In this document: positions 34,305 to 57,225 of the stretch, piece after piece | How positions within the stretch are numbered: the first letter of the stretch is position 1 | Layout: every line of letters starts with the position of its first letter | DNA from: Terribacillus sp. DMT04 | GTDB lineage: Bacteria > Bacillota > Bacilli > Bacillales > Amphibacillaceae | NCBI RefSeq assembly: GCF_019056395.1 | Contig: NZ_CP077639.1 | Coordinates: forward strand, 212,501-276,500 | Length of the DNA: 64,000 bases | Direction: 5' to 3' | Made by a program: the position numbers and the translations under genes | Notes under the pieces: model-generated | What the model was told of the DNA's origin: nothing | Databases searched by the model: none | What the model saw: the letters and a program-made list of their open reading frames with translations, nothing else

Positions 34305-34308
34305 TTTT

Positions 34309-38970: not shown

Positions 38971-38981
38971 GAGGTAATTCA

Positions 38982-40850
38982 ATGCTGCCATTCTTTACAG
39001 ATCCTTACCCAGATGAGTTGATTTATTCGGCGATTGCCCGTTACCACTTTTACAGTGGAAATATTAATTATAAAGATACGTTGGAAGAGGTATTTCAAAG
39101 TCGCTCTGTGATACCGAGTGTAGAGATTGGTAGCCATTTTCATGCCTTTGTCCAACAGATGGGAAATCATTATTTAGTGGAGAATTTGTTAGCGAAACAT
39201 ACCATTTACCCGTTTTATGCCCCGTTTCTTTCCAAACAGCGACAGCAAAAGATTATGCAGGACGTCCAAGGTGATGGCAGAGGTCTGTACACAAGGTTAG
39301 GTATGGTTGCAGGAGGTATTTGTAAGAAAGATGGATTATACTATTGTCCGCAATGTGCACAGTCTGATATTGATAACTACGGTGAACCATACATACATAG
39401 GGAACACCAATTGCAAGGTATAGATTTGTGTGCACATCATTATTTACAACTGAAAAAATATCCAGAAGACTTTACCGAGCAAAGTAGAATCAAATTTATT
39501 CGGTTTGAGGCAAAAAGAATGGATTTTTCTATTCTACAGGAAGTGAAATTTTCTGATCGTTTTGATATTCAAGTCAAGCTAGCAAAAATGGCATATCAAT
39601 TATTAAATATTGGTATAAATGCAATCTCACGGGAGGATATCTTTAAAAGGTACCGATTGCTCCTCAGAGAGAAGAATTTACTTACTACATCAAATCGAAT
39701 AAGACAAAAGGAGTTATTTGATGCATTCCAGGCAAAGTTCCCAAAAGGGTACTTAGATAGCTATGATTCGGCTTTAGTTGAGGAAGATGAATATAATTGG
39801 TTAAAGGTACTAACCCGTAATAAAAGGCGTCATGTGCACCCTTCGCGTCATCTATTTCTATTATACTTTTTAGATAGTGATATAGAGGAGCTTTTGGATA
39901 TTGGAGAAGATGAAGGTCCTTTTGGTAAAGGTCCATGGCCATGCCTAAATAAGGCTGAAGACCATTATAGGCAACTGGTAATCCAAAATGTAACGATTAC
40001 TAGGGATTTTAAATCAATTGCCCCCATTGGTACGTTTAAGTGTTCCTGTGGCTTCACTTATGCTAGAAAGGGTCCTGATAAATCGAATGAAGATAAATAC
40101 CGTATTGGTCGTATAAAAGCTTTTGGGGATGTCTGGATGGATAAATTAAAAGTCCTAGCAAACAATGGGGATCTTAGCATAAGGGCAATAGCTGAAATAC
40201 TCGGCGTTGATTCTAAGACAGTAAAAAAGTATTCATCCATGGATGGGCAAAACGAAAAGGCTAAAAGTAATGAAACTTCTCCATTGTTACTGCGATACCG
40301 TGAGCAACTACTTAAAGGAATAAAGCGATATCCTAATGAATCAAGAACTCAAATTAGAAGGTGCTTTCAAAAGGAATATACCTACTTGTATCGCCATGAT
40401 AAGGAATGGTTATTTAAACAGTTGCCTAACATTCGGACAATGGGGAAACCAAAAGCAAGTGTGGATTGGGAAGCCCGTGATCTTCAATATTTCTCAAAGG
40501 TGAAAGAACTTTACAAAGAACTTATTATGCTAGGTAAGCCTGCTCGAATTACTATTTCGATTATTGGAAAACGTCTTGGAATATTATCGAACTTAGAAAA
40601 ACATCTTCATAAGCTGCCACAAACTAAACAGTTTCTTGATGAAATTACAGAAACGGTACAGCAATTCCAAATTAGACGTTGTTGTAAAGTTATAGATCAA
40701 ATGTTGCGGGAGCAAGAACCTGTAAGGCCATGGAAGGTGCAACGAATTGGTGCTGTCAAATCACATCATTTTCGTGAAATAAGACCACATTTAGAGTCAT
40801 ATATACAAATGAAACAGGAAGTGGACGATTATGAGTGCACAACAAGTTAA
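38982..40850 (+). CDS. tnsD: Tn7-like target selector TnsD (TniQ family)
   Basis: This 622-residue protein recognises the end of glmS and recruits TnsC. The N-terminal TniQ region (PFFTDPYPDELIYSAIARYH) is followed by a zinc-binding cluster, CPQCAQ then HREHQLQGIDLCAHH. A second CSCGF motif lies near residue 350, and a helix-turn-helix follows (LSIRAIAEILGVDSKTVKKY). Its presence agrees with insertion exactly at attTn7. GGAGG lies 7 bases before the ATG, 11 bp after tnsC. Confidence 0.95.
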   Translation: MLPFFTDPYPDELIYSAIARYHFYSGNINYKDTLEEVFQSRSVIPSVEIGSHFHAFVQQMGNHYLVENLLAKHTIYPFYAPFLSKQRQQKIMQDVQGDGRGLYTRLGMVAGGICKKDGLYYCPQCAQSDIDNYGEPYIHREHQLQGIDLCAHHYLQLKKYPEDFTEQSRIKFIRFEAKRMDFSILQEVKFSDRFDIQVKLAKMAYQLLNIGINAISREDIFKRYRLLLREKNLLTTSNRIRQKELFDAFQAKFPKGYLDSYDSALVEEDEYNWLKVLTRNKRRHVHPSRHLFLLYFLDSDIEELLDIGEDEGPFGKGPWPCLNKAEDHYRQLVIQNVTITRDFKSIAPIGTFKCSCGFTYARKGPDKSNEDKYRIGRIKAFGDVWMDKLKVLANNGDLSIRAIAEILGVDSKTVKKYSSMDGQNEKAKSNETSPLLLRYREQLLKGIKRYPNESRTQIRRCFQKEYTYLYRHDKEWLFKQLPNIRTMGKPKASVDWEARDLQYFSKVKELYKELIMLGKPARITISIIGKRLGILSNLEKHLHKLPQTKQFLDEITETVQQFQIRRCCKVIDQMLREQEPVRPWKVQRIGAVKSHHFREIRPHLESYIQMKQEVDDYECTTS

Positions 40851-42363
40851 AATTAAGTGGCCATTCGGAAAAGGAGAAAGAGCAAGACTAATTTGGATTG
40901 GCGATCCATTCCGTTATGAAAACAAAATAATGATATATGCATACTTCCGGGCAAAGAGAGTAACAGAAAAAATACTATTGGACTGGGGTACATTGCCTTG
41001 CTTAGCCATCCAGCATTTTTATAGTGACGGAGTGATTACCACAAGTCAGCCACCGCAAGGAGCACGGGAAGTAGATATTACAATTGACCCAAATAAAGTT
41101 AAGTATTACGAGAGGTCATGGAACATCCAAGGTATTGATGACCCTTCAACTTCTCGCAGCTTCATTTTCTTCTTCGATGGCAGGAATGTCATTCTGCCAG
41201 TCATTGAAGTGCTGCGAAGTATATTAGCGCCAAATAGTTTTCTTTTGTATCGTTTGTTTGAATCAAATTCATTTCCTCAGTATTTTACTGAAACATATGA
41301 ACCAAATAAAATTCATCTTAGCTTTTCGTCATTATTTGAGTTGAAGTACACCAAATCAGCATTTATTTATCAATTAGTTTGGTTACTAACCAACCGTGAT
41401 TTGCGACAAACCTATGAAAGTATTTCCTTCAACTGGTTGCAGGAACAGGCATTGAAGTTTAAATGGAAATTTACAGAACCAATCACTGTGACTGCTCGTG
41501 TAAAGGAGAAAGATAATACATGGACGGTTTTACAAATTGTTAATGTAAAAAATAAGCATATTCCATATGAAAATATCTCGATTTCACATCCAGAAATACA
41601 AGATAAAGAGAAGTCGAAAGAAGCAAAGAAATATACATATCGTTCCCTAAATAAAAACGGTGACAAAATAGGCTTTACATTAGATGAACAAGTTGACGGA
41701 TCCGCAGAGGATTTTGATTTTGTGCAAATGAATAAGTTGAGACATGAATATACATCGGTGCCAAAAGTCAAACGGGTAAAACGTGGGATTTCCAAGCAAC
41801 GAACAGAAGAAGACGAAAATACAAAAAAATACTATGGCGAAAATAGGTCTATTCGTTCTACAGCAGACAGTGGTGGGCAGCACTTGGCAAGAGGTTTGGA
41901 ACATCAAATGCTGTACGAAGTCCAAGCTCAAGGGGAGTTGCGGAGTTTTATTAATGTCTTAAAGATATTGGAACAATCCCTGGAAGTCAAAGCAATTCGA
42001 GCATTTACTGATGTGTTACCGTGGAGCTTAGGAGAGAGAAAATTCACTAAGTTAAGTGACGGCATTACCAAAAGGAGTTATGTAGTTGCAGAAGTATTTA
42101 TGATGAATGGGGGACGGTTCAATATTATAGAGGTAGAACGTGAGCATCGTTCCTTATCAACACTTATTTTATCCTCGCCTACCAAACAAGATTGGAGTAC
42201 GATCTATAATCATGTACTTATGGATCTTGTCAATGCCAGTGGGTCATGGACTGGTAACTCATTAAGATCTATTGAAACTAAAGGAATTAGTATTGTTAAA
42301 GCAAGACATAGTAGTAAAGGAATTCAACATAGAGCAAGAATTTTACTAAGTAAAGTCTTGTAA
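40831..42363 (+). CDS. tnsE: Tn7-like target selector TnsE
   Basis: This 510-residue protein resembles TnsE in place and length (Tn7 TnsE about 540). TnsE guides transposition to replicating DNA, often conjugal plasmids, through the sliding clamp. The C-terminal domain (about 350-510, including GQHLARGLEHQMLYEVQAQG and NIIEVEREHRSLSTLIL) is the conserved part. It overlaps tnsD by 20 bases. With both TnsD and TnsE the element has the two classical Tn7 routes: a safe chromosomal site and spread by plasmids. Confidence 0.85.
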   Translation: MSAQQVKIKWPFGKGERARLIWIGDPFRYENKIMIYAYFRAKRVTEKILLDWGTLPCLAIQHFYSDGVITTSQPPQGAREVDITIDPNKVKYYERSWNIQGIDDPSTSRSFIFFFDGRNVILPVIEVLRSILAPNSFLLYRLFESNSFPQYFTETYEPNKIHLSFSSLFELKYTKSAFIYQLVWLLTNRDLRQTYESISFNWLQEQALKFKWKFTEPITVTARVKEKDNTWTVLQIVNVKNKHIPYENISISHPEIQDKEKSKEAKKYTYRSLNKNGDKIGFTLDEQVDGSAEDFDFVQMNKLRHEYTSVPKVKRVKRGISKQRTEEDENTKKYYGENRSIRSTADSGGQHLARGLEHQMLYEVQAQGELRSFINVLKILEQSLEVKAIRAFTDVLPWSLGERKFTKLSDGITKRSYVVAEVFMMNGGRFNIIEVEREHRSLSTLILSSPTKQDWSTIYNHVLMDLVNASGSWTGNSLRSIETKGISIVKARHSSKGIQHRARILLSKVL

Positions 42364-42492
42364 CCGTTGATGATATTTTTAAAATAGAGGTTTACTAACT
42401 TTCAACAATTTTACTTAAATGGTACATTTTACAGGATTTGAAGATTTGGAATTAAAGAGTTGAAAATATATTTAAAACAAGGGGGAAGATTA

Positions 42493-45134
42493 ATGTCCAA
42501 GGCATTAAGAGAGTATAAACAATTTCTAAAGAAATACGCAGGGGATTTGTCTAATTATGAAATGAAATTGGCAAGGATTATTTTAGACAATTTTACTTCT
42601 ATTGAAAAATCTAGTAGCGCTGGGGGAAGAAGGGGTAAACTTATCGCTAGTTTAGTAACCGAGCATGGTGATTCAGTCGATGGAGAGTTTTTATTAGATG
42701 AAACCTCTGAAGCAATAACTGAAGATCAAATCAATCGTCTTTCAAAATTAACTGTAAAAAACTTTAGGGGATTCTCTGATGAACATATCTTTGAATTTAA
42801 AAAACCCTATACTTTTGTTTACGGTCCTAATGGAAGTGGAAAATCGAGTTTCTGTGAAGCCCTTGAATATGCACTTTTAGGGACAATTCATGAAGCGGAT
42901 GCAAAGCGAATTGGCCTTGATAAATATATTAAGAATGCATATACAGGGCAATCCGAACTGCCTATTTTGAAAGGTGTAAATTCGAAGGATAGTCAAGTTG
43001 TTGTACATCCAATGCCCCAAGTTAATGAATTTTGTTTTATAGAAAGAAATCGTATAGAAGGGTTTGCCCGAGTCTCCGCTAATTCACCACAGGCTCAGCA
43101 ACAACGACTTGCTGCTTTATTTGGATTAGAGGATTTTAATACCTTTGTTGCGAATTTTAATGAATGGTTTGATAATTACCTTGATTGTGAAGGAAAGCTT
43201 GCAAAGAAACTTTCTGAAGAAGAGAAGAAAATCGAATTACATAAACAATATATAGAAACTTTGCCTCAAAAAAGAGAAGAGGTACAGCAACAGACAGATG
43301 AATTACTTAGCAAGTATCCTGATGTTAATACTTTAGAAGAATTAAAAGAAAATTTATCAGGAACGGAAGAGGCAGAGGGACTTGTACAAAAAAATAATGC
43401 ACGAATTGCGAGTTTAGGGAATTTAAAAAGTATACCAGACCCTGGTATTGAAAAGTTGATGGAAAGTACCCAACGTGTAGACTCGCTAATAAAAGAGCGT
43501 AATGAGGCAATGGAGTCTTTACAGGATTATAAAGATCAAATATCTTTAAAGGATCTGTATACCGCTATTTTACAAAATAAAGATAAATTTCATGATGTTT
43601 GTCCAGCGTGTGAATCAGAGTTATATATAGACGGGAATCTTGCAGTTCCTTTAAACCCTTATTCCCATGCCGCTAAGAAAGTACAAGAATTTGAGATAGC
43701 TATAAAACTTGAAACAAGAGTAACTGAAATAGATAAGCAGATACCTAAAGAACTCACGTTTCTTGAAACCAAACTCACGCATATTTTAACGCTTGTAGAA
43801 TCAATAGAATTCCCAAAAAAAGATACCATTGACGCTTTAAATCAACAGATATTGGATGCCAAGGAAGTTGAACAAAATTTAAGTGATGCAATAGCAACGA
43901 CTATCTATTATTTTGATGTTTTTAATGATTTTAAAGAACATCTGATTATTTACAACAAAAAAGTCACCGAAGCTGAGGATGAAATTAAAAATCTAAAAGC
44001 GGAAAATAGACGATTAGACGAAGTTCTAGAAGAGCTATCGAGAATTCGGACAAGAATAGAATCTATCAATGAAGGTGAAAAGAAGGCAAATGAAGCTGTG
44101 GAGAAATTTACCCAAGAAAACAAAGAATTAATTAAGCAGGTTGAAAAGGAAAAGCTGTTAGTAGCACGTAATTGCCAATACCATGATGCATATGTTTTAC
44201 TAAAAGCCCGTTTAGTAGAATATAACCGTCAGTTACCATCCGTTTTGGCATCTAACTTGAATGCTAAAACAATGGAGTTTTATAACGCAATCAACAGATA
44301 TGATCATCCGTATGATCTTTTGGAAGGGATCAATCTCCCTTCTAGTTCTGGCGAAAAGATAGAAATCCGCTTTAAAAATGGAGGAAACTTAAATGCATTA
44401 CATGTTTTAAGTGAGGGGCATATAAGGTGCTTGGGTCTATCTATCCTCTTAGCCAAGAATGTACAGGATAATTTACCAATACTTATATTTGATGATGTGG
44501 TAAACGCAATTGACGATGAGCACAGGCGAGGAATTATTGAAACTATATTGGAGAATGATTATATAAGTGATAAGCAACTTATTATTACTACTCACGGAGA
44601 AGAATTTGTAAAACAATTAGAAAATAATATCTCTAAAAAGGATTATGAAAAAAAGGTAACACGAATAGACTTTCTTAAAACAGATGAACCAAAGAAAATT
44701 ACAGTGAAATTAAATCTATCACGAAATTATTTAGTCCTTGCTCAACAAAGGTTAGAAGAAGGTCAACTTCGTGATAGTTTAGCGAACGGACGGAGAACAC
44801 TTGAAAACTTAATGAATAAACTTTGGAAAAGTTAGCGAAAAAATACAACGTTCAATTAAGTGTAGCAATGCGATCTCCCGAGAGACCGCCGGAATTAATG
44901 TCAACTGCTCAAGCGCTAAGAAAATTTATTTCCAAGCATACAATAGATGGATATGAAAATGTGGTTTCATCACTGGAGGTTTTGTTGGGGATGGAAAGCA
45001 AGCATCCTTTCGAATGGAACTATCTTAATAAAGGAACGCATGAAGAGGAGAGAATGGAAGAATTTGATAGGACAGTTGTCAAAGACATGATAGAATTATT
45101 AGAACAAATTGATGATACTATAATGAACAGATAG
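42493..45134 (+). pseudogene. SMC/RecF-like AAA ATPase, C terminus frameshifted
   Basis: The main frame (42493-44835, about 780 residues) has an N-terminal cap, then Walker A VYGPNGSGKSSFCEALEYAL (about 110). Long coiled coils flank a zinc-hook-like CPACESEL (about 380). ABC signature and Walker B regions are LSEGHIRCLGLSILLA and PILIFDDVVNAIDDEHRR, with ITTHGEEF after them. This is the layout of RecF/Rad50-like overcoming or defence ATPases. The frame stops at LMNKLWKS, while the next frame (from about 44823) continues with KLAKKYNVQLSVAMRSPERP to 45134. One A lost from the run TGGAAAAG explains this; the intact protein would have about 880 residues. ATG 42493 follows AAGGGGGAAGA. It may be a defence or repair factor carried by the transposon; the ATPase part could still function. 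Confidence 0.75.
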
Positions 45135-45164
45135 GTTGGTTTATTGAAATAAAATACTTAACAT

Positions 45165-45218
45165 AATACCCCTAAACAATATATACTAAGTATATATTGT
45201 TTAGGGGTATTTATTATT
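45165..45218 (+). terminator. 47-bp perfect palindrome, terminator plus PadR-like site
   Basis: Bases 45165-45211 form a perfect palindrome with arms AATACCCCTAAACAA... around a central A, followed by TTATTATTTG. It ends the ATPase transcript. Its centre TATATACT-A-AGTATATA is the same core as the operator at 45275-45299. Confidence 0.85.
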
Positions 45219-45268
45219 TGTATTTTAAAATAACGCGTAAATTATCAGGGGTAATTAAATATTTACGC

Positions 45269-45299
45269 TTTATATTATTATATACTTAGTATATAATAA
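45269..45299 (+). promoter_or_regulatory. Promoter and PadR-type operator of the ABC exporter operon
   Basis: A perfect 25-bp palindrome (45275-45299, core TATATACT-T-AGTATATA) covers a promoter TTTATA (45269-45274)-17 bp-TATAAT (45292-45297). The ATACT/AGTAT half-sites are typical of PadR-family repressors, and a PadR gene ends this operon. AGTAT occupancy would block RNA polymerase. Confidence 0.8.
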
Positions 45300-45329
45300 G
45301 ATGGGTAAAGAACGGGAGGAGTTATTAAT

Positions 45330-46049
45330 ATGATTAAAGTTAACAATCTAACAAAGGAATTTTTACAGGGTCAACAAAGAACTCAAGTACTGAAAGGTGT
45401 TGATTTGAACATTGAAGAAGGAGAATTCGTGGCTATAATGGGACCGAGTGGTTCTGGAAAAAGTACCTTACTTCAATTATTAGGAGGACTTGATGTACCT
45501 ACCAATGGAGACATACAAATTAATCATAAATTTTTAAATAAAATGAAGGAAAAAGAAAGAACGATATTTCGGAGGAAAAAACTAGGATTTGTTTTTCAAA
45601 ATTATCAATTATTGCATACTTTAACTGTGGAAGAAAATATTGCATTCCCTCTCCATGCTGACGGAAAATTGACTAATGAAAAAAGTAAAATGATCCATGA
45701 ATTAATTCAATCTGTAGGATTAAAGGGGCTTAATCGCAAACGAGCTAATCTGCTAAGTGGTGGTCAGCAACAACGTGTAGCTATTGCTAGGTCACTTGTT
45801 AATAACCCGACTGTCTTATTAGCTGATGAACCAACAGGGAATTTAGACAGGGCTAAGGCAGAGGAAATTCTTGGACTATTTTCAAAATTCCATCGTGAAA
45901 ACAAGCAAACCATTGTGATGGTCACACATGATATTTTTGCAGCTGGTTTTGCAGATCGTATCATACTTTTTAGAGACGGGGTTATAGATAAAGTTATATC
46001 TAGGAAGGATAGTGACTATGCTAAATATTTGGCGAATTTCATGGCGTAA
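45330..46049 (+). CDS. ABC transporter ATPase, MacB/LolD type
   Basis: This 239-residue nucleotide-binding subunit has Walker A GPSGSGKSTLLQLLGGL, signature NLLSGGQQQRVAIARS, Walker B VLLADEPTGNLD and the switch histidine in MVTHDIFAAGFADRI. It belongs to the MacB/LolD/FtsE-like family that powers mechanotransmission permeases with FtsX domains. In Firmicutes such systems give resistance to antimicrobial peptides or export peptides. GGGAGGAG precedes the ATG. It overlaps the permease gene by 32 bases. The operon appears to be repressed by its last gene, padR. Confidence 0.93.
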   Translation: MIKVNNLTKEFLQGQQRTQVLKGVDLNIEEGEFVAIMGPSGSGKSTLLQLLGGLDVPTNGDIQINHKFLNKMKEKERTIFRRKKLGFVFQNYQLLHTLTVEENIAFPLHADGKLTNEKSKMIHELIQSVGLKGLNRKRANLLSGGQQQRVAIARSLVNNPTVLLADEPTGNLDRAKAEEILGLFSKFHRENKQTIVMVTHDIFAAGFADRIILFRDGVIDKVISRKDSDYAKYLANFMA

Positions 46050-48480
46050 TATAATACTTAACAAAAAGAGGTTTCTCTTTACACTGCTTGCTATTATACT
46101 AGGGACGTCTTTTGTAACATCTATGCTAATAGCTGATAAAACAACAAATGACGTTTTTGACTATTATGAGCAAATGTATGTAGCCAATGCTGATTATTGG
46201 GTTTTAAGTGATGAACATACCTATTCTGAAGAGATGATTTCGTCTATTCAAAGCGATCCCACTGTTACAGATGCATTGCTTGCCCTTGATAAGCAAGCTT
46301 TCTTTGAGCTAGAAGGCGATCACTCTCTGAATGAAAGATCTGTACGAATTACAGGAGTAAATGATCAAAATAGCCCCTTGCTGAAGCTTCCAGTTATTGA
46401 AGGTAGCTTAGATAATAAAGGAATAATATTACCAGAAGTTATCGCAAACCTTTTAGGAAAAGGGGTTGGAGATACGGTTCGGTTTACCGATATGGGAGAA
46501 GCAAAAGTTTCCGCCATTGTTGAGTATACGCAACTGCTTGCAAGCCCAAGTAATTGGGAAAGTGCTGAATCAACCAGTTTTCGCATTATGGCTCCACTTG
46601 ATATGTTAAGAGAGTGGACAGGAAAAAATGATGAGATTTCCTATATGCGTTTTCAAACCAAAGGTGATGGTGAGGATCTCTTTCACTCATTTCAACAAAA
46701 GTTCCATGGTTCTAGTGTATATATAGAACCCGTTGTTGCAGATGACCTTCAGAGCAACGATATAGGTGGTCTTTATACCTTTTTCTATATAATTGCTGGA
46801 TTGGCGCTATTTATTAGCGGATTTATTGTTTTTAATATGATTTATACAAGCGTTATAGAACGGAAAAAGGAATTTGCAATAATGAAATGCTTAGGATATA
46901 CACAAAGTTCGGTTTCTAAGCTCGTACTTATTGAAATGACACTTTTAGCATTAATCGGTACAGCTATTGGCATTCCACTTGGTATATGGTTTGGAGATAT
47001 GTTTATGCAAGCGCTTCTTAGTGTATTCGAATTTGATATGGTCTACACTTTAAACTGGAAGCTGCCAACGATGATGGCTATCACGATTGGATTGCTATTC
47101 CCTATAGTCTTTTCGCTTTTCCCTATTTACAATGCAGGTAAGACATCAATTTTATTGACATTAAAAAAGGAAAACAATACGAATGCATCATCAAGACAGT
47201 ACATTCTTAGAACTATTGTGGGAGTGGTGCTTCTATGTTTTGTATTTATAAATCACCCTGTTGCTTATGCAGCTGTAATAGTAGGTGTCATTCTTCTATT
47301 TCCTTTACTATTGATGGGTTTAGGTAAAATAACAAAGCCTCTTTTGAAGTTTCTTTTTAATTATTCTGGTACCATGGCTATAAAAAATCTTTTCCAGCAA
47401 ATAAATCGCAATTCAAATACAGCTACTATTCTAGCTATTGGTATATCAGTTATATTATTACTTGGTGCAGTGGTAGAGTCAGCACCTAAAGGGTATGAAA
47501 AAGAAATTAAAAATACGTATGGGGGAGATATGAGAGTTACGTCTGAAGCACCATGGTCTACAGAAGATGTAACAAAACTTCTTTCATATCATGCGGTCAC
47601 AGACGTTAAGTCATTAACTGAAGCTACACCAATTACATGGGAGACAGTTAATGAAGAAAGAAGGCAATTTTCCGTTATTTCGGTAAGTGAAAATGGTCCT
47701 TCATTGTTTGCGGATGTTCGTGAAAAAGATTTGTATAATAAATTAAAACAGAAATCTTCTGTGTTGCTCGGCGAACGAGCCTTTGAAGAATGGGGTGGAA
47801 ATATTGGGCAAAGCATACGAATGAATACCCCCAATGGTGAACAGTATTTTGAAGTTATTGGAGTCGTCAACACATCGCATTATTCTGGATATGTCGCCTT
47901 TATGGACACGACCAATCTTCGTGATGAATTTGGATGGACCAATAGCTTCGATTTGCTACTTACCTTGAACAATCAAGCGAATGATTCCATACGTGATCAG
48001 TTATGGTCTGATTTTGGTGATCATCTATCAAAGGTCCAAACGGCAGAGGATGAAATTGAATCTACTACTTCAGCAATTTCTGGTATGAATGAACTTCTCT
48101 TAGTTATGTTGTTTATATTCATTGGATTAGCTAGTATTGGTACAGTTAATACATTATTGATGAATACTTATGAACGAAAGTTCGAGATTGGAACGATGCG
48201 GGCGCTTGGTTTTACTAAACAACAAATTAGAAACATGATATTAGCTGAAGGTTTGCTCATTGGATTATCAGGAGTTATAGGCGGAATTGCAACTGGTGTA
48301 ATTTTAATTTATGTAACAAGTAAATCTAAACTGATGGAAGGATTTATTTCTTTCCAACTCCCTATTGGTAATATTATATTTGCAATAATTGCTGGAATTT
48401 CTCTAAGTCTCTGTGCAGCCTGGATTTCTAGCAAAACTGCAAGTAAATTGGATATTCAGTCATCACTCAAAGAAGGTTGA
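46018..48480 (+). CDS. FtsX-like ABC permease with two FtsX domains
   Basis: This 820-residue permease has one N-terminal span (FLFTLLAIILGTSFVTSML), a large extracellular domain (about 45-255), three helices of the first FtsX domain (about 260-390), a middle pair near 405-440, a second extracellular domain, and a final FtsX triplet (from about 690, LLVMLFIFIGLASIGTVNTLL). Both FtsX copies carry the ERKxExxxMxxLGxT motif (ERKKEFAIMKCLGYTQ; ERKFEIGTMRALGFTK). This is the usual partner of the ATPase above. ATG 46018 lies 9 bases after AGGAAGG. It probably moves or extracts a hydrophobic or peptide substrate. Confidence 0.92.
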   Translation: MLNIWRISWRNIILNKKRFLFTLLAIILGTSFVTSMLIADKTTNDVFDYYEQMYVANADYWVLSDEHTYSEEMISSIQSDPTVTDALLALDKQAFFELEGDHSLNERSVRITGVNDQNSPLLKLPVIEGSLDNKGIILPEVIANLLGKGVGDTVRFTDMGEAKVSAIVEYTQLLASPSNWESAESTSFRIMAPLDMLREWTGKNDEISYMRFQTKGDGEDLFHSFQQKFHGSSVYIEPVVADDLQSNDIGGLYTFFYIIAGLALFISGFIVFNMIYTSVIERKKEFAIMKCLGYTQSSVSKLVLIEMTLLALIGTAIGIPLGIWFGDMFMQALLSVFEFDMVYTLNWKLPTMMAITIGLLFPIVFSLFPIYNAGKTSILLTLKKENNTNASSRQYILRTIVGVVLLCFVFINHPVAYAAVIVGVILLFPLLLMGLGKITKPLLKFLFNYSGTMAIKNLFQQINRNSNTATILAIGISVILLLGAVVESAPKGYEKEIKNTYGGDMRVTSEAPWSTEDVTKLLSYHAVTDVKSLTEATPITWETVNEERRQFSVISVSENGPSLFADVREKDLYNKLKQKSSVLLGERAFEEWGGNIGQSIRMNTPNGEQYFEVIGVVNTSHYSGYVAFMDTTNLRDEFGWTNSFDLLLTLNNQANDSIRDQLWSDFGDHLSKVQTAEDEIESTTSAISGMNELLLVMLFIFIGLASIGTVNTLLMNTYERKFEIGTMRALGFTKQQIRNMILAEGLLIGLSGVIGGIATGVILIYVTSKSKLMEGFISFQLPIGNIIFAIIAGISLSLCAAWISSKTASKLDIQSSLKEG

Positions 48481-48484
48481 TAAA

Positions 48485-48991
48485 TTGTCAGTAAAATATG
48501 GGATTTTAACGTTATTATTCCTGCAGAAACATCATGGATACGAATTGAAATTAGAATTAGATTCCCTTCTTGGAATTAAAGGTAAAATTAATCCTGGTCA
48601 GATATATACCACTCTCGATCGTCTAATCCGTGACCAACTTGTCTCATTCGTAGGAATGGATGACCAAGAAAGAAAACTTTATAAAATAAATACAGAAGGT
48701 AAAAATGAGTTGGAAAATTGGTTGTTAGAACCTGTACCTTATCATTCTACTAAAGACGACTTCCATTTAAAATGGAGCTGTGCTCGTAACATTTGTTTTA
48801 AACAGGAAAAGAAAATGCTTGATCAGCAAAAAGCAATGATAATGAAAGATGTCATGGAATTGACTAAATTAAAAACTGAATTTCTTCTTCAAGGTGACGA
48901 GAATAGGTATTTATTAATCACTGGTACACTCTTGCATTTAGAAGCAGATTTAAACTGGATTAATCAAGTTGAAAATCGAAATCGATCATAA
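48485..48991 (+). CDS. PadR-family transcriptional repressor
   Basis: This 168-residue regulator has an N-terminal winged helix (YGILTLLFLQKHHGYELKLEL, then INPGQIYTTLDRLIRDQLVS and the wing RKLYKINTEGKNEL). A C-terminal helical dimerisation part follows (PadR class with Vir_act_alpha_C). TTG at 48485, 4 bp after the permease stop, is chosen: GAAGG lies upstream and the conserved start VKYGIL follows. Ligand-controlled PadR proteins repress the exporter they lie with; the palindromes at 45188 and 45287 are likely targets. Confidence 0.88.
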   Translation: MSVKYGILTLLFLQKHHGYELKLELDSLLGIKGKINPGQIYTTLDRLIRDQLVSFVGMDDQERKLYKINTEGKNELENWLLEPVPYHSTKDDFHLKWSCARNICFKQEKKMLDQQKAMIMKDVMELTKLKTEFLLQGDENRYLLITGTLLHLEADLNWINQVENRNRS

Positions 48992-48997
48992 TTCTAG

Positions 48998-49030
48998 GCA
49001 AAGGTTTTCTCTTTTTAAAAACCTTTGCTA
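48998..49030 (+). terminator. Hairpin after padR
   Basis: GCAAAGGTTTT pairs with AAAACCTTTGC. A good T run is missing after it, so termination may be weak. Confidence 0.55.
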
Positions 49031-49140
49031 CTATTCATGTTCAAATTTTATGCAGTGCAATGTTTAAATAAGTTAAAAGTGACCTTAAGTAATCTTTTAT
49101 ACTGTTATTAGACTTTTACGAATAAAGGGGGAATCCTATT

Positions 49141-49290
49141 TTGAAGAAAGACGATATTATTATTTATGCTTGCGTTATTATTGGGGCAGGAGTAGGTTTA
49201 CTATTTGATAATGCTTTTCCTGGGGTGCTAATTGGTTTAGGAATTGGCTACGTATTTAAAATCCTATTTTTTAATAATAGAAATAAATAA
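49141..49290 (+). CDS. Tiny two-helix membrane protein
   Basis: This 49-residue protein starts with TTG (MKKDDIIIYACVIIGAGVGL) and has two hydrophobic, glycine-rich segments separated by FDNAFPG, ending in a lysine/asparagine tail. AGGGGG lies 9 bases upstream of TTG 49141. The GxGxGxG spacing suggests helix packing in the membrane. No family recognised. It is transposon cargo, between padR and a decayed gene. It could be a companion of the exporter. Confidence 0.65.
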   Translation: MKKDDIIIYACVIIGAGVGLLFDNAFPGVLIGLGIGYVFKILFFNNRNK

Positions 49291-49337
49291 GGAATTAGGT
49301 ATTAGATTGTTTCCTATTAACGAATTAAAAAGTTGAG

Positions 49338-49639
49338 CGGTGTATCAGTTAGTACTAGAAAAACTTCCAAATATGGATAGTAGTGATTCAGATTCCTTAG
49401 AGTAGATTGCTAGAGTAGGCCAAATTAAAAAATATATGCACCTTGGTCATAGTAATACACGTATACAAAATATTATTAAGAGAATGGATGTAAAAAAGTT
49501 ATGATTTTAATGACGAAGATGCATTTTTAAATAAACTTTGGGATATTAGAATGTCACCCGAGAGTCAAAAAATATAACCTGTATCCAATTGATCAAGAGG
49601 TTCTTAACTTTATGGATTATCTCGATAATAAATTTTAGC
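49338..49639 (+). pseudogene. Decayed gene remnant in the Tn7-like cargo
   Basis: Three frames read as one protein-like sequence. The first runs from about 49338 (VYQLVLEKLPNMDSSDSDS), has one in-frame stop, and goes on as IARVGQIKKYMHLGHSNTRI. The second continues with SYDFNDEDAFLNKLWDIRMS. The third ends with LYPIDQEVLNFMDYLDNKF at 49639. One nonsense change and two frameshifts are needed. The original function is not recognised. Confidence 0.5.
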
Positions 49640-49671
49640 CTTTGAACACAATTGTTCATGAGGAGGAAAAG

Positions 49672-50328
49672 ATGGGAACAGATATTTTAATTTATTTGGG
49701 CGGCTTAGCTCTTTTAGATACATTAAGCCCTACAATAATTGGTGTTACGTTATTTCTGATTTTAACAGATAATAAAAATTTAACATCAAGATTATTGACA
49801 TATCTATTTACGGTTGTGCTATTGTATTTTTCATTAGGTATAATAATGATGTTAGGCTTAAATTATATTATTGAAGCATTCTCAAATATTTTTCAAAATA
49901 AAATATTTAGCTGGGTTGTCTTTATTATAGGGGGGATCTTATTTACGGCTAGTTTTTTTATTCCCGAAAATAAAAAAAGTAATATTCCAAAGCCTAAAAC
50001 TCAAAGCGTATTATCAATTATATTTATTGGTATTACTACTTTTTTCATTGAGGCTGGTACAGCCTTACCGTATTTTGCCGCAATTGGTTTATTAACTACA
50101 ATTGATATACCTTTTTATCAATGGATTCCAATTATAGCCGCATACAATATTATTATGATTCTGCCAGCACTGCTTATCTTCTTTGGATATAAATTGTTTG
50201 GAAAGTGGATAAATTCCACTTTAGTTAATCTTCGGAATAAAATATCAAGCAGTTCAAATTCAGCCCTATCTTGGATAATGTGTATAGTTGGGTTGATATT
50301 AATATTTTACACCATAGATTATCTATAA
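49672..50328 (+). CDS. GAP-family membrane protein
   Basis: This 218-residue protein has about six membrane helices (GGLALLDTLSPTIIGVTLFL at the start; a final helix near 200-215). It resembles the GAP/Sap family (LysE-like fold), whose mycobacterial members support glycolipid or lipid export. AGGAGG lies 5 bases before ATG 49672, which decides the start. The conserved DTLSP near the N terminus and FFIEAGTALPYFAAIG in the middle match the repeated motif of this family. It is the last intact cargo gene. Substrate unknown. Confidence 0.75.
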   Translation: MGTDILIYLGGLALLDTLSPTIIGVTLFLILTDNKNLTSRLLTYLFTVVLLYFSLGIIMMLGLNYIIEAFSNIFQNKIFSWVVFIIGGILFTASFFIPENKKSNIPKPKTQSVLSIIFIGITTFFIEAGTALPYFAAIGLLTTIDIPFYQWIPIIAAYNIIMILPALLIFFGYKLFGKWINSTLVNLRNKISSSSNSALSWIMCIVGLILIFYTIDYL

Positions 50329-50614
50329 TTAGTCTTGAGAATATATTATTAAATCAAAAGATATTCAGATTGTAACTAAAAATGCTGGCCGGGAATGGTA
50401 ATTAAGACTTTCAATTTTTATTTTCCCTACTTCTAAAAAGGTCGGTATCCACTGTTAAATAGCCAGTATCCCGACCGGCAGAGTATTCGGGTAGAATAGC
50501 AGGAATTACCCAATGCCAATTCTGTTGGTTTCCAATATTAGCCCAATCGGTTTTTGAGGAAAACCCCTTTAATGATCCTATAATTGAAAAATGTAGGTTT
50601 ATGATGTGTTTTTG

Positions 50615-50759
50615 ATCAAACTTTTTTATAAAAAACATATAATACTATACAAATAATAACCCCGTTTTGATCAATCTTTTTTCAAAACGGCTTTTATTTA
50701 TTTAACACAAAATGCGTGTTAGTGAGATAATTTTAATCAAACTTTATTCCAAACCAACA
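50615..50759 (-). repeat. Left end with three spaced TnsB-binding repeats
   Basis: Three units in inverted orientation relative to the right end: near 50617 (TTTGATCAAACTTTTTTATA), near 50668 (TTGATCAATCTTTTTTCAAA) and near 50733 (TTAATCAAACTTTATTCCAA). The end is ACA at 50757-50759. Three spaced sites over about 145 bp match the left-end plan of Tn7. Confidence 0.88.
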
Positions 50760-50809
50760 ACTACATTTATGTTTCAGCCTATAATAAAGTTGTTTAAATA
50801 TGGAAGTTT

Positions 50810-51048: not shown

Positions 51049-53190
51049 ATGTATATTTCTCAACTAGAGATTACAAATTTTAGGAACTTCAATAATGCCG
51101 TATTTAAGTTTAAACAAGGAATAAACACATTAATTGGTGAAAATAGTTCCGGAAAATCTAATGCGCTATATGCAATTCGACTGCTTTTAGATGAAAGTTT
51201 ACCTATTAACGCGACAAAACTTTTGGAACAAGATTTTAATCAAAATATTACTGAATGGAAAGGGCATTGGATAGTTTTAAAACTTACTTTTAAAGATTTG
51301 GACGTTAGTGAAGCAGCAAGCTTTCTGGCTCACCATTCACAAGATGTCAGAGCTGATGAAGAATCGGTTGGGACATATGCATTGTATTATCGTCCGAATA
51401 AATCAGTGAGAAATAAGTTATATGAGTTTACTAAAAGGCTTGAGAAACTTCAACAAACTGGTGAAGATATCACAGAAGTAAAAAGTGATCTTAAGCTTTT
51501 TTTAAAGGAGATTACCTTAAAAGATTATGAAAGTGTATTTACATGCAGAATAAATGCAGATTTTAATGATGAGCAACAATATAAAGACTTAGTTGGAGAT
51601 TTTGAAAATGGAATTTTTCCGAACCCTGAAGAGGACAATAATCTTGCTCTTGGCAATATCTCCCCACATATTACGTTGATAAAAAAAGAGATTTCATGCA
51701 CTTTTGTTAAGGCACTTAGAAATGTTATAGCGGAATTAAAGCAAAAGAAGAGTAGCCCTTTATTACAACTCTTGCGAGGAACAACTAAAGATATTGAAAT
51801 TATAGAAGCAGAAAAGATAAAAAAACAAGTACAAGATTTGAATAGTGATATAAGCGAATTAGATGAAATAAGTTTATTAACAAATAAAATAAAAGCTTCT
51901 TTAAATAGAACTTTAGGATATACATATTCGCCTAATGTAAATATTAAATCTGAATTACCAGAGGAAGTTGAGACATTACTCCAATCCTTAACATTATGGG
52001 TTGGGGATGATTCTAATAGTAACCAAGGAAAATTAGATGATTTGAGTTTAGGTGGTGCAAATTTAATTTATATCACTTTAAAGTTATTAGAGTATGAATT
52101 TTATCAAGATCAAGAAGAAAAAGCAGCACATTTCCTATTAATTGAGGAACCAGAGGCTCATATTCATACACATGTGCAAAAGACATTGTTTGAAAAATAT
52201 CATTTTGAAAATACACAAGTAATTATAACTACACATTCAACTCATATTTCTTCTGCAAGTAAAATAGATTCGATGAATATATTAATAAAAGAAAAGGGCT
52301 ATACACAAGTTTGTCAGCCTAGTAACGGATTGGATTCAGACACTTGCAAAAGAATTGAAAGGTACTTAGATGCAACAAGGTCAAATTTATTATTTGCTAA
52401 AGGTGTAATTTTAGTTGAAGGTGATGCAGAGCTTATATTAATTCCAGCTATGTTTAAAGCTGTTTTTGGACTCAATCTTGATGAAATAGGTGTAAGTGTA
52501 ATCAATATGAGTAGTACCGTTTTTGAACATGTTGCAAGCTTATTTGATGACATAAGAATTCATAGGAAATGTGCTATTATAACAGATCTTGATAAATCAA
52601 TAGAAGTGCTGCCATACAATCCGGATGATGACACTAAAGAGCAGAAGAAAATGAGAGATTCACAAACTGCAGGTCAAGAAAGGGCGGACGCTTTAAATAA
52701 AAGATATCGAGATAACATTTGGTTAGATACTTTTTATGCGCGACATACATTTGAAATTGACTTTACGTTAAATTCAAATGTTTATGAAATAAGAACGGTT
52801 TTACCAAAGATTTACAATCGTCAATTTGATATTGATAATTCTATCGTTAAGCTGTGTTCAAAAGATAAAGTAAGTGTTGGGAAGGAAGCGCTGAGACTTG
52901 CTAATAAGGAAGGTAAAGGATGGTTTGCTTTATTAGTTTCAGAAACTCTTTCTTTTGAAACGTATATTCCTCAATATATTTTAAATGCAATAGCATTTAC
53001 CTCTGCACATATAACAGAAGAACATTTAAGTGCAATGGCGAAGTATAGAATAAGGAAACTCTATAAGAAAAAGTATTGTAACCTTGATGAAAAGAACTTT
53101 GAACAATTAACTGATCTATTAAGTAGAGATAGTGAAGAAGACAAAGAAGATGCATTAATCATATTAACGAAACTTCTAGGAGTGAACTAG
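51049..53190 (+). CDS. gajA: OLD-family nuclease, Gabija GajA-like (ATPase + TOPRIM)
   Basis: This 713-residue protein is a class 2 OLD nuclease. The ATPase half starts with ISQLEITNFRNFNNAVF and Walker A INTLIGENSSGKSNALYAIR (about 35). It has signature-like LSLGGANLIYITLKLLEYE and Walker B HFLLIEEPEAHIHTHVQ, then ITTHSTHISSA. The C-terminal TOPRIM domain has the Glu in GVILVEGDAELILIPA (about 456) and the acidic pair in CAIITDLDKSIEV (about 515). GajA senses phage interference and nicks DNA. It is longer than the reference GajA (about 580). The ATG at 51049 has AAGAAGGA 8 bases upstream; ATG 51040 does not. It is followed by a UvrD-like gene, the Gabija pair. Confidence 0.85.
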   Translation: MYISQLEITNFRNFNNAVFKFKQGINTLIGENSSGKSNALYAIRLLLDESLPINATKLLEQDFNQNITEWKGHWIVLKLTFKDLDVSEAASFLAHHSQDVRADEESVGTYALYYRPNKSVRNKLYEFTKRLEKLQQTGEDITEVKSDLKLFLKEITLKDYESVFTCRINADFNDEQQYKDLVGDFENGIFPNPEEDNNLALGNISPHITLIKKEISCTFVKALRNVIAELKQKKSSPLLQLLRGTTKDIEIIEAEKIKKQVQDLNSDISELDEISLLTNKIKASLNRTLGYTYSPNVNIKSELPEEVETLLQSLTLWVGDDSNSNQGKLDDLSLGGANLIYITLKLLEYEFYQDQEEKAAHFLLIEEPEAHIHTHVQKTLFEKYHFENTQVIITTHSTHISSASKIDSMNILIKEKGYTQVCQPSNGLDSDTCKRIERYLDATRSNLLFAKGVILVEGDAELILIPAMFKAVFGLNLDEIGVSVINMSSTVFEHVASLFDDIRIHRKCAIITDLDKSIEVLPYNPDDDTKEQKKMRDSQTAGQERADALNKRYRDNIWLDTFYARHTFEIDFTLNSNVYEIRTVLPKIYNRQFDIDNSIVKLCSKDKVSVGKEALRLANKEGKGWFALLVSETLSFETYIPQYILNAIAFTSAHITEEHLSAMAKYRIRKLYKKKYCNLDEKNFEQLTDLLSRDSEEDKEDALIILTKLLGVN

Positions 53191-53196
53191 CTGAAA

Positions 53197-54972
53197 ATGT
53201 ACATTAACTTAAATCCTTTGCAACAGGCAGCTATAGATGAAGAAGAAAATGCACTGGTACTAGCTTGTCCAGGTAGCGGGAAAACGCGAATATTAACATT
53301 AAAGATTGCAAACGAGTTGGAGAAATTAAATAAAAGAACTCATAGAATTGCAGCACTTACATTTACTAATAGGGCTGCTGATGAGATCGATAAAAGAATT
53401 AATTCTATGAGTATAGATGTAAATCAATTATGGACAGGTACTATTCATTCCTTTTGTTTGCAATGGATTATTAGACCTTATGGTATTTATCTTCCAGAAC
53501 TACAAAGAGGTTATTCAATCCTAGATGAATTAAAAGCTCAAGATTTAAAGGAGACATTTAAATCGAAGTTTGATATACCTAGATTCAATGATTTTATCAC
53601 TAGAAGAGATAAAAATGGGGATTACATAAATAGTGAAGAAAAATATAATAATGCAGCTAAAGCTTATCATAAATTTATATTAGAGAATAAGTTAATAGAT
53701 TTCGATCTGATTTTGTACTTTTCATACAATTTAATTAAAAAACATCCTAAAATCTCTCGTAACCTTTCAAATATTTTTAAATACTTTTTTATTGATGAAT
53801 ATCAGGATACTCAAGATCTCCAATATGCAATTGTTGGAAAGATAATCAAAGCGGCAGAGGGTAAATGTAAAATTTTCTTGGTCGGGGACCCAGACCAAGC
53901 AATATTTAAATCTTTAGGTGGAATTGTGAAAGACCCTATGGAGATAAGCGAAGATATTGGAGGTTATAGTATAAAGCAATTAGGATTAAGTAATAATTAT
54001 AGATCGACTCAACGCTTAATAAACTTATATAGCAACTTTCAAAGTACAGGCTTAGTAATAGAATCGTTAGCAGACTATTGTAATGAAGAAGGAATAGTTA
54101 AATTTGATGAAAATACTCATAAGGATAATTTAGTAGATAGAATTGCAGAGATTATAAAAAAAGAAATCTCAGACGGTGTCTCTCCAAATGATATTTGTAT
54201 TCTAGCTCCACAATGGAGTTTCCTATCCGCTATGGCCAGAAGGTTAAAAGCTAATCTACCATATATAGAATTAGATGCTCCAGGATTAACTCCTTTACCA
54301 CGTGATCGTGATAATTTTTGGTTTAAGCTAGCAAGGATTTTTTTAATAACTAAAGAACCAAATAAGTATTTAGTAAGGATGAAATGGGCGCGCGAGATTT
54401 TAGAAGAATTAGTTACTGTAAGTGGCATCATGATTGAAGTTAATAACGATACCTGCAGGATATTTTTAAAAAAGATTAATTCAACAGATACTAAAGAAGA
54501 AAATGCAATCGAATATTTAAAAGAGAGTTTTAAGTATTTGTTCGAAAAGCTGAAATTTGATTATAGTTCAAGTGAATTATTAAAGGAACAATGGGATAAT
54601 TTCTTTAATGGATTAAGGCAACGATATGAAAGTCCAGATTTTCGCGATATCCCTAAAGATATAAACTATATGAAGAGAATGTTTAATACAAAAGAAGGTC
54701 TTGTTATAAATACTTGTCAAGGTGTTAAAGGTGAAGAGTTTCATACAGTAATTGCATTTGGATTATTAAGAGGATATCTACCACATTGGAATCAGATAAT
54801 TAATCAACCTATCACTAATGAAATAGAAGAATCAAACAAGTTATTGTACGTCATTTGTTCTAGAGCTAAAAAAAATCTGTATTTATTTGCTGAAAATGGT
54901 AGAACTACAGTAAAAAGAAGGCCTTACGAGGTCAATAAGCAATTAAGTACCATTAACTTTATGAATATATAA
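53197..54972 (+). CDS. gajB: UvrD/PcrA-like SF1 helicase, Gabija GajB-like
   Basis: This 591-residue superfamily 1A helicase has the motifs NPLQQAAIDEEENALVLACP followed by GSGKTRILTLK (Q motif and Walker A, about 28), TFTNRAADEI (Ia), DEYQDTQDLQYAI (II, about 200), FLVGDPDQAIFKSLGG (III), LSNNYRST (IV) and NTCQGVKGEEFHTVIAFG (V/VI region). Together with the adjacent OLD nuclease this is the Gabija anti-phage arrangement. It is shorter than PcrA and lacks its C-terminal part, as GajB does. It starts 6 bp after gajA. Confidence 0.88.
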   Translation: MYINLNPLQQAAIDEEENALVLACPGSGKTRILTLKIANELEKLNKRTHRIAALTFTNRAADEIDKRINSMSIDVNQLWTGTIHSFCLQWIIRPYGIYLPELQRGYSILDELKAQDLKETFKSKFDIPRFNDFITRRDKNGDYINSEEKYNNAAKAYHKFILENKLIDFDLILYFSYNLIKKHPKISRNLSNIFKYFFIDEYQDTQDLQYAIVGKIIKAAEGKCKIFLVGDPDQAIFKSLGGIVKDPMEISEDIGGYSIKQLGLSNNYRSTQRLINLYSNFQSTGLVIESLADYCNEEGIVKFDENTHKDNLVDRIAEIIKKEISDGVSPNDICILAPQWSFLSAMARRLKANLPYIELDAPGLTPLPRDRDNFWFKLARIFLITKEPNKYLVRMKWAREILEELVTVSGIMIEVNNDTCRIFLKKINSTDTKEENAIEYLKESFKYLFEKLKFDYSSSELLKEQWDNFFNGLRQRYESPDFRDIPKDINYMKRMFNTKEGLVINTCQGVKGEEFHTVIAFGLLRGYLPHWNQIINQPITNEIEESNKLLYVICSRAKKNLYLFAENGRTTVKRRPYEVNKQLSTINFMNI

Positions 54973-55019
54973 CTTGTGAAAATTAAGAGGTTTTTTACAT
55001 AGAAAAAGGAGATGTTTTA

Positions 55020-56030
55020 TTGAGGGCTAGAAAGTTTTATTATGATAACTTTGCTCCAAACGAAAAAGGGAAAAGTTATCAGAAGGTTCATCAAGAAAAT
55101 TTATACTCTGATTTAAGTGTGAAAAATATAAGGAAAATATATAATCATCAACCTAATCAAAGTAACGACAGATTAATTGAACAACTAGTGAATAAAATTG
55201 CTAGTCGTAACTCAGAAGATATAATGTTACGAATTAATAATATGTTTATAGCAAAAATTAATTCTTTTGAAGCAAATGCTTTTGCTCTTGAATCTAAAAA
55301 AAGATACTGGAGTGATTTAGTTTTTTTTCATGTGGGTTTGTCAGATGTCTGTTTTCAATTCTGTGTCAACTATCTAGAATTTAACCTAATAAGAGAAAGA
55401 ATAGATACACACATAAATGAGAATGCTCTTTTTAAAGCTAAGTTCTTTAAGGATTCCTCTAACTTAGTAGGAAACTGTGTAAAATGGAGAGAAAATGATA
55501 AGTATATCCAATTAGATGTGAATACAGTCATAAAAGGATATAGCAAAAATATAGAAAACAAAGCAGCGGCTTTAGCAACGTTTATGGATATGTTTATTTT
55601 AGCGCATGAAATCTCACATCACTTGTTGAATCATACGGGTAGAAGTCATGATTTTCAGAATTACTTGGAAATAATCCCTAAAGAAAGTTCAATTTGGGGT
55701 AAATCCACTAATCAATCTTTTAAAAATGAGTTTGAAGCAGACGCGTTTGCAATACTGTTACTATTAGGTATTACTCCTGAGAATTACAAAGAAAAGCTTA
55801 AAATAGAGAAACAATTATGCTTTGAGATGTCTTTTGGTGTCATTTTCACTTTGGAAATAATTTCAGTATTATCTAAAAATGAAGAGGCTTCTTCAACGCA
55901 CCCACCAATTGAAGAGAGACTAAAAAATGTGAACACTATTTTAGAGGAATTTGTTAGTGATCAAATTCTAAATATTATAGATGAATCCATATCAAGTTAT
56001 ATTGGGCTCATAAATACATTAAAACAGTAA
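55020..56030 (+). CDS. HEXXH metallopeptidase-like protein, third gene of the Gabija-like operon
   Basis: This 336-residue protein starts with TTG (AAAAAGGAGA upstream). A zinc-peptidase site HEISHH lies in MFILAHEISHHLLNHTGR (about 197), and a third ligand is likely in NEFEADAFAILLLLG (about 238), as in M48/M78-type gluzincins. The C-terminal EEASSTHPPIEERLKN is also typical of M48-like proteins (HPP.E.R). No membrane span or signal peptide is seen, so it should act in the cytosol. It lies 47 bp after gajB, before the operon terminator, on the same strand and with the same AT-rich composition. Classical Gabija has two genes, so this may be a new component or regulator. Function is inference. 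Confidence 0.75.
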   Translation: MRARKFYYDNFAPNEKGKSYQKVHQENLYSDLSVKNIRKIYNHQPNQSNDRLIEQLVNKIASRNSEDIMLRINNMFIAKINSFEANAFALESKKRYWSDLVFFHVGLSDVCFQFCVNYLEFNLIRERIDTHINENALFKAKFFKDSSNLVGNCVKWRENDKYIQLDVNTVIKGYSKNIENKAAALATFMDMFILAHEISHHLLNHTGRSHDFQNYLEIIPKESSIWGKSTNQSFKNEFEADAFAILLLLGITPENYKEKLKIEKQLCFEMSFGVIFTLEIISVLSKNEEASSTHPPIEERLKNVNTILEEFVSDQILNIIDESISSYIGLINTLKQ

Positions 56031-56065
56031 GGCGCCATACATCTCCAATAGTATGGTGCTTTTTA
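56031..56065 (+). terminator. Terminator of the Gabija-like operon
   Basis: GGCGCCATAC pairs with GTATGGTGCT (G-T pairs allowed) around a 10-base loop, then TTTT. It ends 21 bp before the histidine kinase start. Confidence 0.85.
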
Positions 56066-56085: not shown

Positions 56086-57225
56086 ATGAAGGATACATAT
56101 TTCATCTGGCTTGCTATCTACTTTATTGTCTGGCTCTTACCTTTCTGGGGAATTGCTACCGATCTAAACACAAGACAACTAACAGGTATAAGTATGTTCC
56201 TTATCCTGTTATTCATTGTTCCGCTCTTTAAAGAAAAACCACTGATACAAACCCTATTATTCTGTGCACAAGCTCTACTGACAATCTTCATCTTCTATCC
56301 TATAAGCAACGACTTAAGCCCATATCCAGTTCTCATACAATCCTTAATTATGGCAGAAGCAGTCTTTTATCTTTCACGTACTAAAAGTTTAATAGTAATT
56401 GCTGTTCAAATTGCGAGTGCTGCAGTGATTTTAATATTATCCACACCCACCATTACTCAATTAGTATGGTGTGCATTATATTACCTTTTACTAGTAGTCG
56501 CCTTGCTTTATCATCAAGTTATACATAACAGAGAAAAAGAGGCGCGCTTAAGCAATGAGGCCTTACTCGAAGAATACAGAAGAATGAAAAGACAGCTTCT
56601 TGTAGAGGAGCAACAAGCAAGACAAGATGAGCGGATGCTAATTGGACATGAGATTCATGATTCGGTCGGGCATAAGCTGACGGCGTTGCTGTTTCAGTTT
56701 GAGGCATTTCGGTTAACGGCGGCTGAGAAGGACAAGGAGATGGTCGGGAAGCTGAAAGAACTGGCTGAACAGAGCTTGGAGGAGACGCGGCAGGCGGTGC
56801 GGTCATTCAAGCAAAATGAAGTGGGCGGTTTGCAGGGTGTGATCCGACTTATTCGGAAATTAGAGATAGAGAGTTTTATGAAGATCAATTTTTCTGTAAA
56901 GCATGGTGCGTTTGCGGCTCCTTTGACGGGTGAGCAGTCATTTGCAATCTTTCGTGCTGTACAGGAGGCATTGACGAATATTATGAAGCATAGTTCTTCA
57001 AGAGAGGCACAAGTCATATTCGAAGCTCCTGGAGGCAGTATTTTTCGGTTTGAGGTGATCAATGCTGCGATGCATGATCGTTACTTTCAAGAAGGGTACG
57101 GGTTGAAGGCGATGCGGGAGCGCTTAGAGAAAGTGGGCGGAACGCTTGAGATCGATTATGAGACGCACCGCTTTTTGGTGAGAGGCACGATAAGATTAGC
57201 AGACTGGGGCGGTTCTGATGATTAA
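56086..57225 (+). CDS. Sensor histidine kinase, NarL-type (HisKA_3)
   Basis: This 379-residue kinase has about six membrane helices (residues 5-155), no large extracellular sensor, and then a cytoplasmic HisKA_3 domain with the phospho-accepting His in IGHEIHDSVGHKLTALL. A HATPase domain follows (FRAVQEALTNIMKHSS, then GYGLKAMRERLEKVGG). This resembles intramembrane-sensing kinases paired with ABC exporters (LiaS/YvfT-like). Base and codon use change sharply near 56630: upstream A/C-rich codons, downstream G-rich ones. The ATG at 56086 follows AGAGGAAG. It overlaps the response regulator by eight bases. Confidence 0.92.
   Translation: MKDTYFIWLAIYFIVWLLPFWGIATDLNTRQLTGISMFLILLFIVPLFKEKPLIQTLLFCAQALLTIFIFYPISNDLSPYPVLIQSLIMAEAVFYLSRTKSLIVIAVQIASAAVILILSTPTITQLVWCALYYLLLVVALLYHQVIHNREKEARLSNEALLEEYRRMKRQLLVEEQQARQDERMLIGHEIHDSVGHKLTALLFQFEAFRLTAAEKDKEMVGKLKELAEQSLEETRQAVRSFKQNEVGGLQGVIRLIRKLEIESFMKINFSVKHGAFAAPLTGEQSFAIFRAVQEALTNIMKHSSSREAQVIFEAPGGSIFRFEVINAAMHDRYFQEGYGLKAMRERLEKVGGTLEIDYETHRFLVRGTIRLADWGGSDD

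Follow-up and report, generated by a model that had tools for sequence, protein, structure and literature searches.

A long-type Gabija locus of Terribacillus sp. DMT04 with a nearly orphan metallopeptidase-like gene behind gajB

In Terribacillus sp. DMT04, two genes reminiscent of the defence system Gabija are followed by a third gene that encodes a protein with zinc-peptidase-like motifs. The preliminary description of this locus proposed that the trio could be an undescribed three-gene subtype of Gabija, and the question is whether the third gene is a part of the system or an independent gene that came to lie behind gajB. The analysis covered a stretch of 64,000 nucleotides (NCBI RefSeq assembly GCF_019056395.1, contig NZ_CP077639.1, positions 212,501 to 276,500 of the forward strand), referred to as the window, and its features are compiled in Table 1.

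Table 1. Features of the window, numbered from its first nucleotide
Feature	Positions	Strand	Description
glmS	32355..34157	+	Left border of the hotspot; presumably glmS, named on the basis of its sequence
Tn7-like transposon	34183..50759	+	TnsA, TnsB, TnsC, TnsD, and TnsE genes plus cargo; between glmS and Gabija
Tn7-like cargo	42460-44835		SMC/RecN-like ATPase
Tn7-like cargo	45330-48991		ABC transporter with PadR regulator
Tn7-like cargo	49642-50328		SfLAP-family membrane protein
gajA	51049..53190	+	OLD-type ATPase/TOPRIM nuclease, 713 aa; PADLOC PDLC00072; Pfam AAA_15, OLD-like_TOPRIM
gajB	53197..54972	+	UvrD-type helicase, 591 aa; PADLOC PDLC00127; Pfam UvrD-helicase, UvrD_C
47-bp gap, gajB to peptidase gene	54973..55019	+	Contains AAAGGAGATG; no detected terminator or promoter-like site
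Metallopeptidase-like protein	55020..56030	+	336 aa; HEISHH (H196, E197, H200), NEFEAD (E237), THPPIEER; Pfam Peptidase_M48 (weak assignment)
Hairpin, then T run	56029..56062	+	-15.9 kcal/mol, z -3.35; 3' of the peptidase gene
Histidine-kinase gene	56086..57225	+	Resident gene, right border of the hotspot; match in 10/10 genomes of the genus, own genome included

The gajA-gajB pair and the length of GajA

The coordinates of the three open reading frames (ORFs) were confirmed, and homologues of GajA begin at the same start. The first two proteins fit the PADLOC models of GajA (709 positions) and GajB (594 positions) over almost their full length, with scores of 930 and 764 bits, respectively. 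The OLD-type ATPase and TOPRIM domains of GajA are recognized by Pfam and PADLOC, and the UvrD-type helicase gene lies immediately 3' of gajA, at a distance of 6 bp. The initial assignment of an OLD/TOPRIM nuclease and a UvrD-like helicase to Gabija is thus supported by both types of models. Judged by its sequence, the pair is an ordinary two-gene Gabija of a clade with long GajA proteins: both genes match their models almost end to end and are adjacent on one strand, whereas the peptidase gene behind gajB is what sets the locus apart from the modeled system.

The nuclease had also been considered unusual since it exceeds the reference GajA by about 130 residues. It is indeed longer than the solved Bacillus cereus GajA (578 aa), a distant relative (39 bits), and an alignment combined with a residue map places approximately 64 additional residues within positions 112 to 256 and approximately 57 beyond position 473. 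However, a GajA-alignment scan of the genome_contigs collection returned 312 relatives, and the median GajA length in the best 80 of these 312, hereafter the clade loci, was 712.5 residues; the three shortest values (L050, L051, and L076) are due to truncation by contig ends. By sequence comparison, long GajA is a trait of this clade in which some 130 extra residues are normal, and GajA length was discarded as a sign of novelty.

The nearest Gabija was found on the Priestia megaterium plasmid pBMV_2 (L008), with a GajA 74 to 76% and a GajB 71% identical to those of the window. Two further observations concern other members of the clade. A Shedu-gajA-gajB cassette with identical gene lengths and spacings is shared by an Escherichia coli plasmid and six species from different groups (L012 and L065 to L070, of which L068 is truncated); these lengths and spacings suggest a recent spread. 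In a Pseudoalteromonas megaplasmid (L010) and in Staphylococcus pettenkoferi (L019), gajB is divided into two ORFs, and these copies may be broken or reflect sequencing errors.

The metallopeptidase-like protein and its relatives

That the third gene, on the same strand, encodes a zinc-peptidase-like protein with a HEISHH motif and a second, glutamate-containing motif was borne out. The Pfam Peptidase_M48 model (PF01435) matches at 28.4 bits, above its gathering score of 20.3, and the best-scoring stretch comprises only profile positions 130 to 184 of 186. The HExxH, EAD, and THP...ER motifs are shared with this family, and H196, E197, H200, and E237 are invariant in four aligned sequences; we take E237 and its counterparts to be zinc ligands. 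Since the whole-genome search with Peptidase_M48 returned a different gene (112 bits) but failed to list the third protein, the assignment to M48 is weak. Hydrophobicity peaks at a score of 1.92 over 19 residues, which makes a cytosolic location plausible.

The motifs HEISH, EAD, and THP...ER occur in the same order in Lit of the E. coli prophage e14, a protease that cleaves EF-Tu on phage infection. In the catalytic half, both proteins share 26% identity over 132 residues (BLASTP 25 bits, E value of 0.002 in a single comparison), and weak signals were obtained with hhalign (probability of 53%) and the PADLOC Lit model (18.5 bits). The resemblance in this half is suggestive but too weak to establish family membership. 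Neither the own genome nor any of 14 control genomes was matched by the Lit model, so that this search was uninformative.

Weak matches were also recorded for PADLOC capP (19.7 bits) and for Pfam Peptidase_M78, the latter under its cut-off. They would agree with an ImmA/CapP-type regulatory peptidase that cuts a repressor and thereby switches on neighbouring genes. Besides the trio, however, there is no plus-strand ORF of at least 80 aa between positions 50329 and 56052, and hence no adjacent repressor gene of that size that could provide the substrate; the PadR gene at 48413 is part of the Tn7-like element. We consider this explanation very improbable.

Relatives of the peptidase were sought in Gabija loci and beyond. 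Neither the sequence search nor profile A2, which is built on only four sequences, detected a relative near GajA in any of the 80 clade loci, in flanks of up to 10 kb on each side and less at contig ends. These flank searches covered 1,420 ORFs of at least 70 residues in 95 loci, many flanks stopping at contig ends; other HExxH proteins occur there and do not match profile A2. The same profile, which does recover the own genome, found no relative anywhere in 49 genomes with a GajA of the clade (derived from 50 of the 80 clade loci, one genome being absent). GajB, on the other hand, was matched in 79 of the 80 clade loci, the exception (L076) being truncated by a contig end, and GajA and GajB thus stand without the peptidase in 79/80.

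The peptidase is scarce in general. Using the protein as the query, a match was obtained in 1 of 398 whole genomes of the phylum, namely, its own, and in 4 of 397 of the order: its own, two at 26% identity, and one at 21%. The last, an ORF of 154 aa that reads as an acetyltransferase, was deemed a chance match. Profile A2 at an E value of up to 1e-5 matched 2/388 genomes of the phylum and 2/338 of the class, in overlapping draws and both times the own genome and the same second genome (G139). The three relatives aligned with the peptidase are 23 to 25% identical. The phage collection contained one matching record, a protein of the Leptospira phage LkmZ_Bejolso9 (L015) annotated as peptidase U49, which shares the motifs and approximately 25% identity over the aligned length; its gene stands between hypothetical genes of the phage genome, whereas that of the window stands beside Gabija. 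No match was found among plasmids, either with the peptidase or with L003 and the Leptospira phage relative as queries, nor among solved structures at E values up to 10. In viral_contigs, none of 2 pattern matches to the peptidase and none of 139 to alignment A2 were confirmed, as was the case for 11 pattern matches to the single protein in genome_contigs, a scan that reaches close relatives only and may omit the own genome.

No GajA or GajB match was found around the three distant bacterial relatives, comprising two from the order (L117 and L118) and the weaker match in G139 (L119). As judged by reading, the surroundings of L117 resemble plasmid or integrative-element DNA, those of L118 contain several defence-like genes, and those of L119 contain metabolic genes. 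The peptidase is thus nearly an orphan, and since so few members of its family are known, its absence from sister loci is based on a small number of sequences.

The profile check for co-occurrence behind the OLD-UvrD pairs of this clade thus speaks against the three-gene subtype, and the peptidase was rejected as a conserved partner of Gabija. A three-gene Gabija with a peptidase was not found in the literature searched, which lies mostly outside subscription journals (including the accessible portions of PMC10781630, PMC8649781, PMC12407980, and PMC13304284), and no paper in that literature, with the same restriction, mentions "Gabija" together with "GajC".

Transcription unit, genes behind gajB, and insertion site

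No terminators were detected between gajA, gajB, and the peptidase gene. In the gap that separates the latter two, AAAGGAGATG precedes the TTG start of the peptidase gene, the folding equals that of shuffled sequences (z 0.10), and no promoter-like site is listed, in a region with 39 such sites overall against 41.7 expected from shuffles. Because the gap contains neither a folded terminator nor a listed promoter-like site, the peptidase gene is probably cotranscribed with Gabija. The GC content at third codon positions (GC3) is similar in gajA, gajB, and the peptidase gene (0.21, 0.22, and 0.24, respectively), whereas glmS and the kinase gene have values of 0.40 and 0.44.

A shared terminator had been advanced as a further argument for a three-gene operon. 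A hairpin followed by a T run does end the cluster, and the terminator scan has no entry for it. However, a similar hairpin precedes the same histidine-kinase gene in two genomes (L106 and L109) in which the slot holds no Gabija and glmS stands at a distance of only about 0.14 kb. The hairpin is therefore no proof of a three-gene unit and was rejected as operon evidence; it was most likely, judging from these sites, originally part of the site. Its right arm is visible in a short printed stretch of L111, and it was not seen in the examined stretches of L108, L110, L112, and L114.

The common strand, the uninterrupted short gap, and the similar composition are what one would expect if the peptidase were a working third component of Gabija that activates the system or curbs its toxicity by cleaving GajA, GajB, or another protein, and a gene stands close behind gajB in several other loci as well. 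Nevertheless, such a role is unlikely in view of the distribution described above, 79 of 80 loci combining GajA and GajB with no detected peptidase, and of the different genes that occupy the place behind gajB elsewhere. This is illustrated by the nearest relative on pBMV_2, where a gene with a Shedu SduA domain begins 6 bp after gajB, at the place of the peptidase gene in the window.

Sufficient sequence after gajB was available for 76 loci, namely, 70 of the 80 clade loci (9 were excluded because of contig ends and 1 because gajB is missing) and 6 plasmid loci. In 35 of them, gajB is followed within 200 bp by an ORF of at least 100 residues on the same strand, and 28 of these 35 are distinct. 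Pfam assigned SduA, SIR2 with NB-ARC, DUF4365 (twice), NERD, RNase_T, phage integrase, and others, and PADLOC assigned PglX; any one family matches at most 2 of the 29 proteins scanned, the window peptidase included. One may read this as an exchangeable accessory slot behind gajB in the long-GajA clade (SduA, DUF4365, NERD, SIR2-NB-ARC, and here the metallopeptidase), the occupant of which would be functionally tied to GajAB, so that in the window a gluzincin protease would add a cleavage step. We regard this as improbable; if true, the two-gene view of Gabija would have missed a modular third component.

As a separate observation, nuclease-type genes recur around this Gabija clade, with SduA, DUF4365, and NERD after gajB (L008, L031, L038, and L091) and SduA and Mrr_cat before gajA (L012 and L010). 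The folds of SduA, DUF4365, NERD, and Mrr_cat are presumably all of the PD-(D/E)XK type.

The trio lies between glmS and the resident kinase gene. In 8 of the 9 other genomes of the genus, the sequence examined extends to glmS, which the kinase gene follows at a distance of approximately 0.14 to 5 kb; in the remaining genome (L114), the sequence stops short of glmS and has the appearance of a further Tn7-like gene set. By comparison of these sequences, the glmS/histidine-kinase interval is an insertion hotspot. Other inserts were identified by reading: L107 has a set of three genes that includes an SMC-like ATPase, L111 has two reverse-transcriptase-like ORFs, L112 has an acetyltransferase, and L113 has a metal-ATPase-like gene accompanied by regulators. 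The Tn7-like set before the kinase gene of L114 contains a SIR2-like gene.

In the window, the interval also harbors a Tn7-like transposon. Tn7-like elements often bring OLD/UvrD genes, and PMC8649781 lists 338 transposons under Gabija on the basis of the OLD nuclease. Here, the ends of the element start with TGTGGCTTTGAAATAAAGTTT and TGTTGGTTTGGAATAAAGTTT and are flanked on both sides by a 5-bp duplication, ACTAC (34178-34182 and 50760-50764); gajA begins outside, and Gabija was thus rejected as cargo. Between the element and gajA, at 50923-51001, two short stretches echo the right end of the transposon (50676-50763) with their order kept (77% over 26 nt and 92% over 13 nt). They may be what is left of an older transposon end, or the similarity may be due to chance.

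A hotspot that accepts genes not suggestive of defence, such as those of L112 and L113, could also have captured passenger DNA, for instance, a stress or housekeeping protease that was stranded there. M48 is a common housekeeping family, with matches in 10 of 14 control genomes, and the L119 relative sits among metabolic genes. The conventional M48 gene encoded elsewhere in the genome and the location of the other relatives, in the Leptospira phage and in apparently mobile or defence-rich DNA (L117 and L118), speak against it, and a passenger without relation to defence appears rather unlikely, if worth bearing in mind.

Proposed interpretation of the locus

The explanation that we favor, with moderate confidence, is an ordinary long-GajA Gabija in the glmS/histidine-kinase hotspot and, behind its gajB, a single-gene metallopeptidase that is unrelated to the system and present as a rider. 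It is based on the strong matches of GajA and GajB to their models, the ordinary length of GajA, the lack of peptidase relatives in all clade loci and genomes inspected, the other gene found in this place in the nearest relative and the mixed set elsewhere, the peptidase relatives that have no Gabija nearby, the other inserts of the hotspot in related genomes, and the Lit-like motif order. It is weakened by the faintness of the Lit resemblance, and the low GC3 of the trio and the 47-bp gap would also fit a joint unit.

According to this rider model, the peptidase would be read off the Gabija transcript. GajAB, by homology, would sense infection and then cut DNA in the manner of known Gabija. 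The peptidase might be a soluble gluzincin, in which two histidines and one glutamate hold the zinc, that acts independently of GajAB. Our guess is that it would most likely be a latent exclusion protease that resembles Lit in its mode of action, cleaving a protein of the host or the phage in the course of infection and thereby forming a second protective layer; this guess draws weak support from the Lit-like motif order and from the finding of two relatives in DNA that belongs to a phage or looks mobile. Any role of the peptidase in defence is a guess from sequence features, and a functional link to GajAB, for which adjacency and similar composition speak, is hypothetical.

Taken together, the locus adds one long-type Gabija and an M48-like orphan peptidase that weakly resembles Lit, the peptidase being a fair candidate for testing as a single-gene defence.
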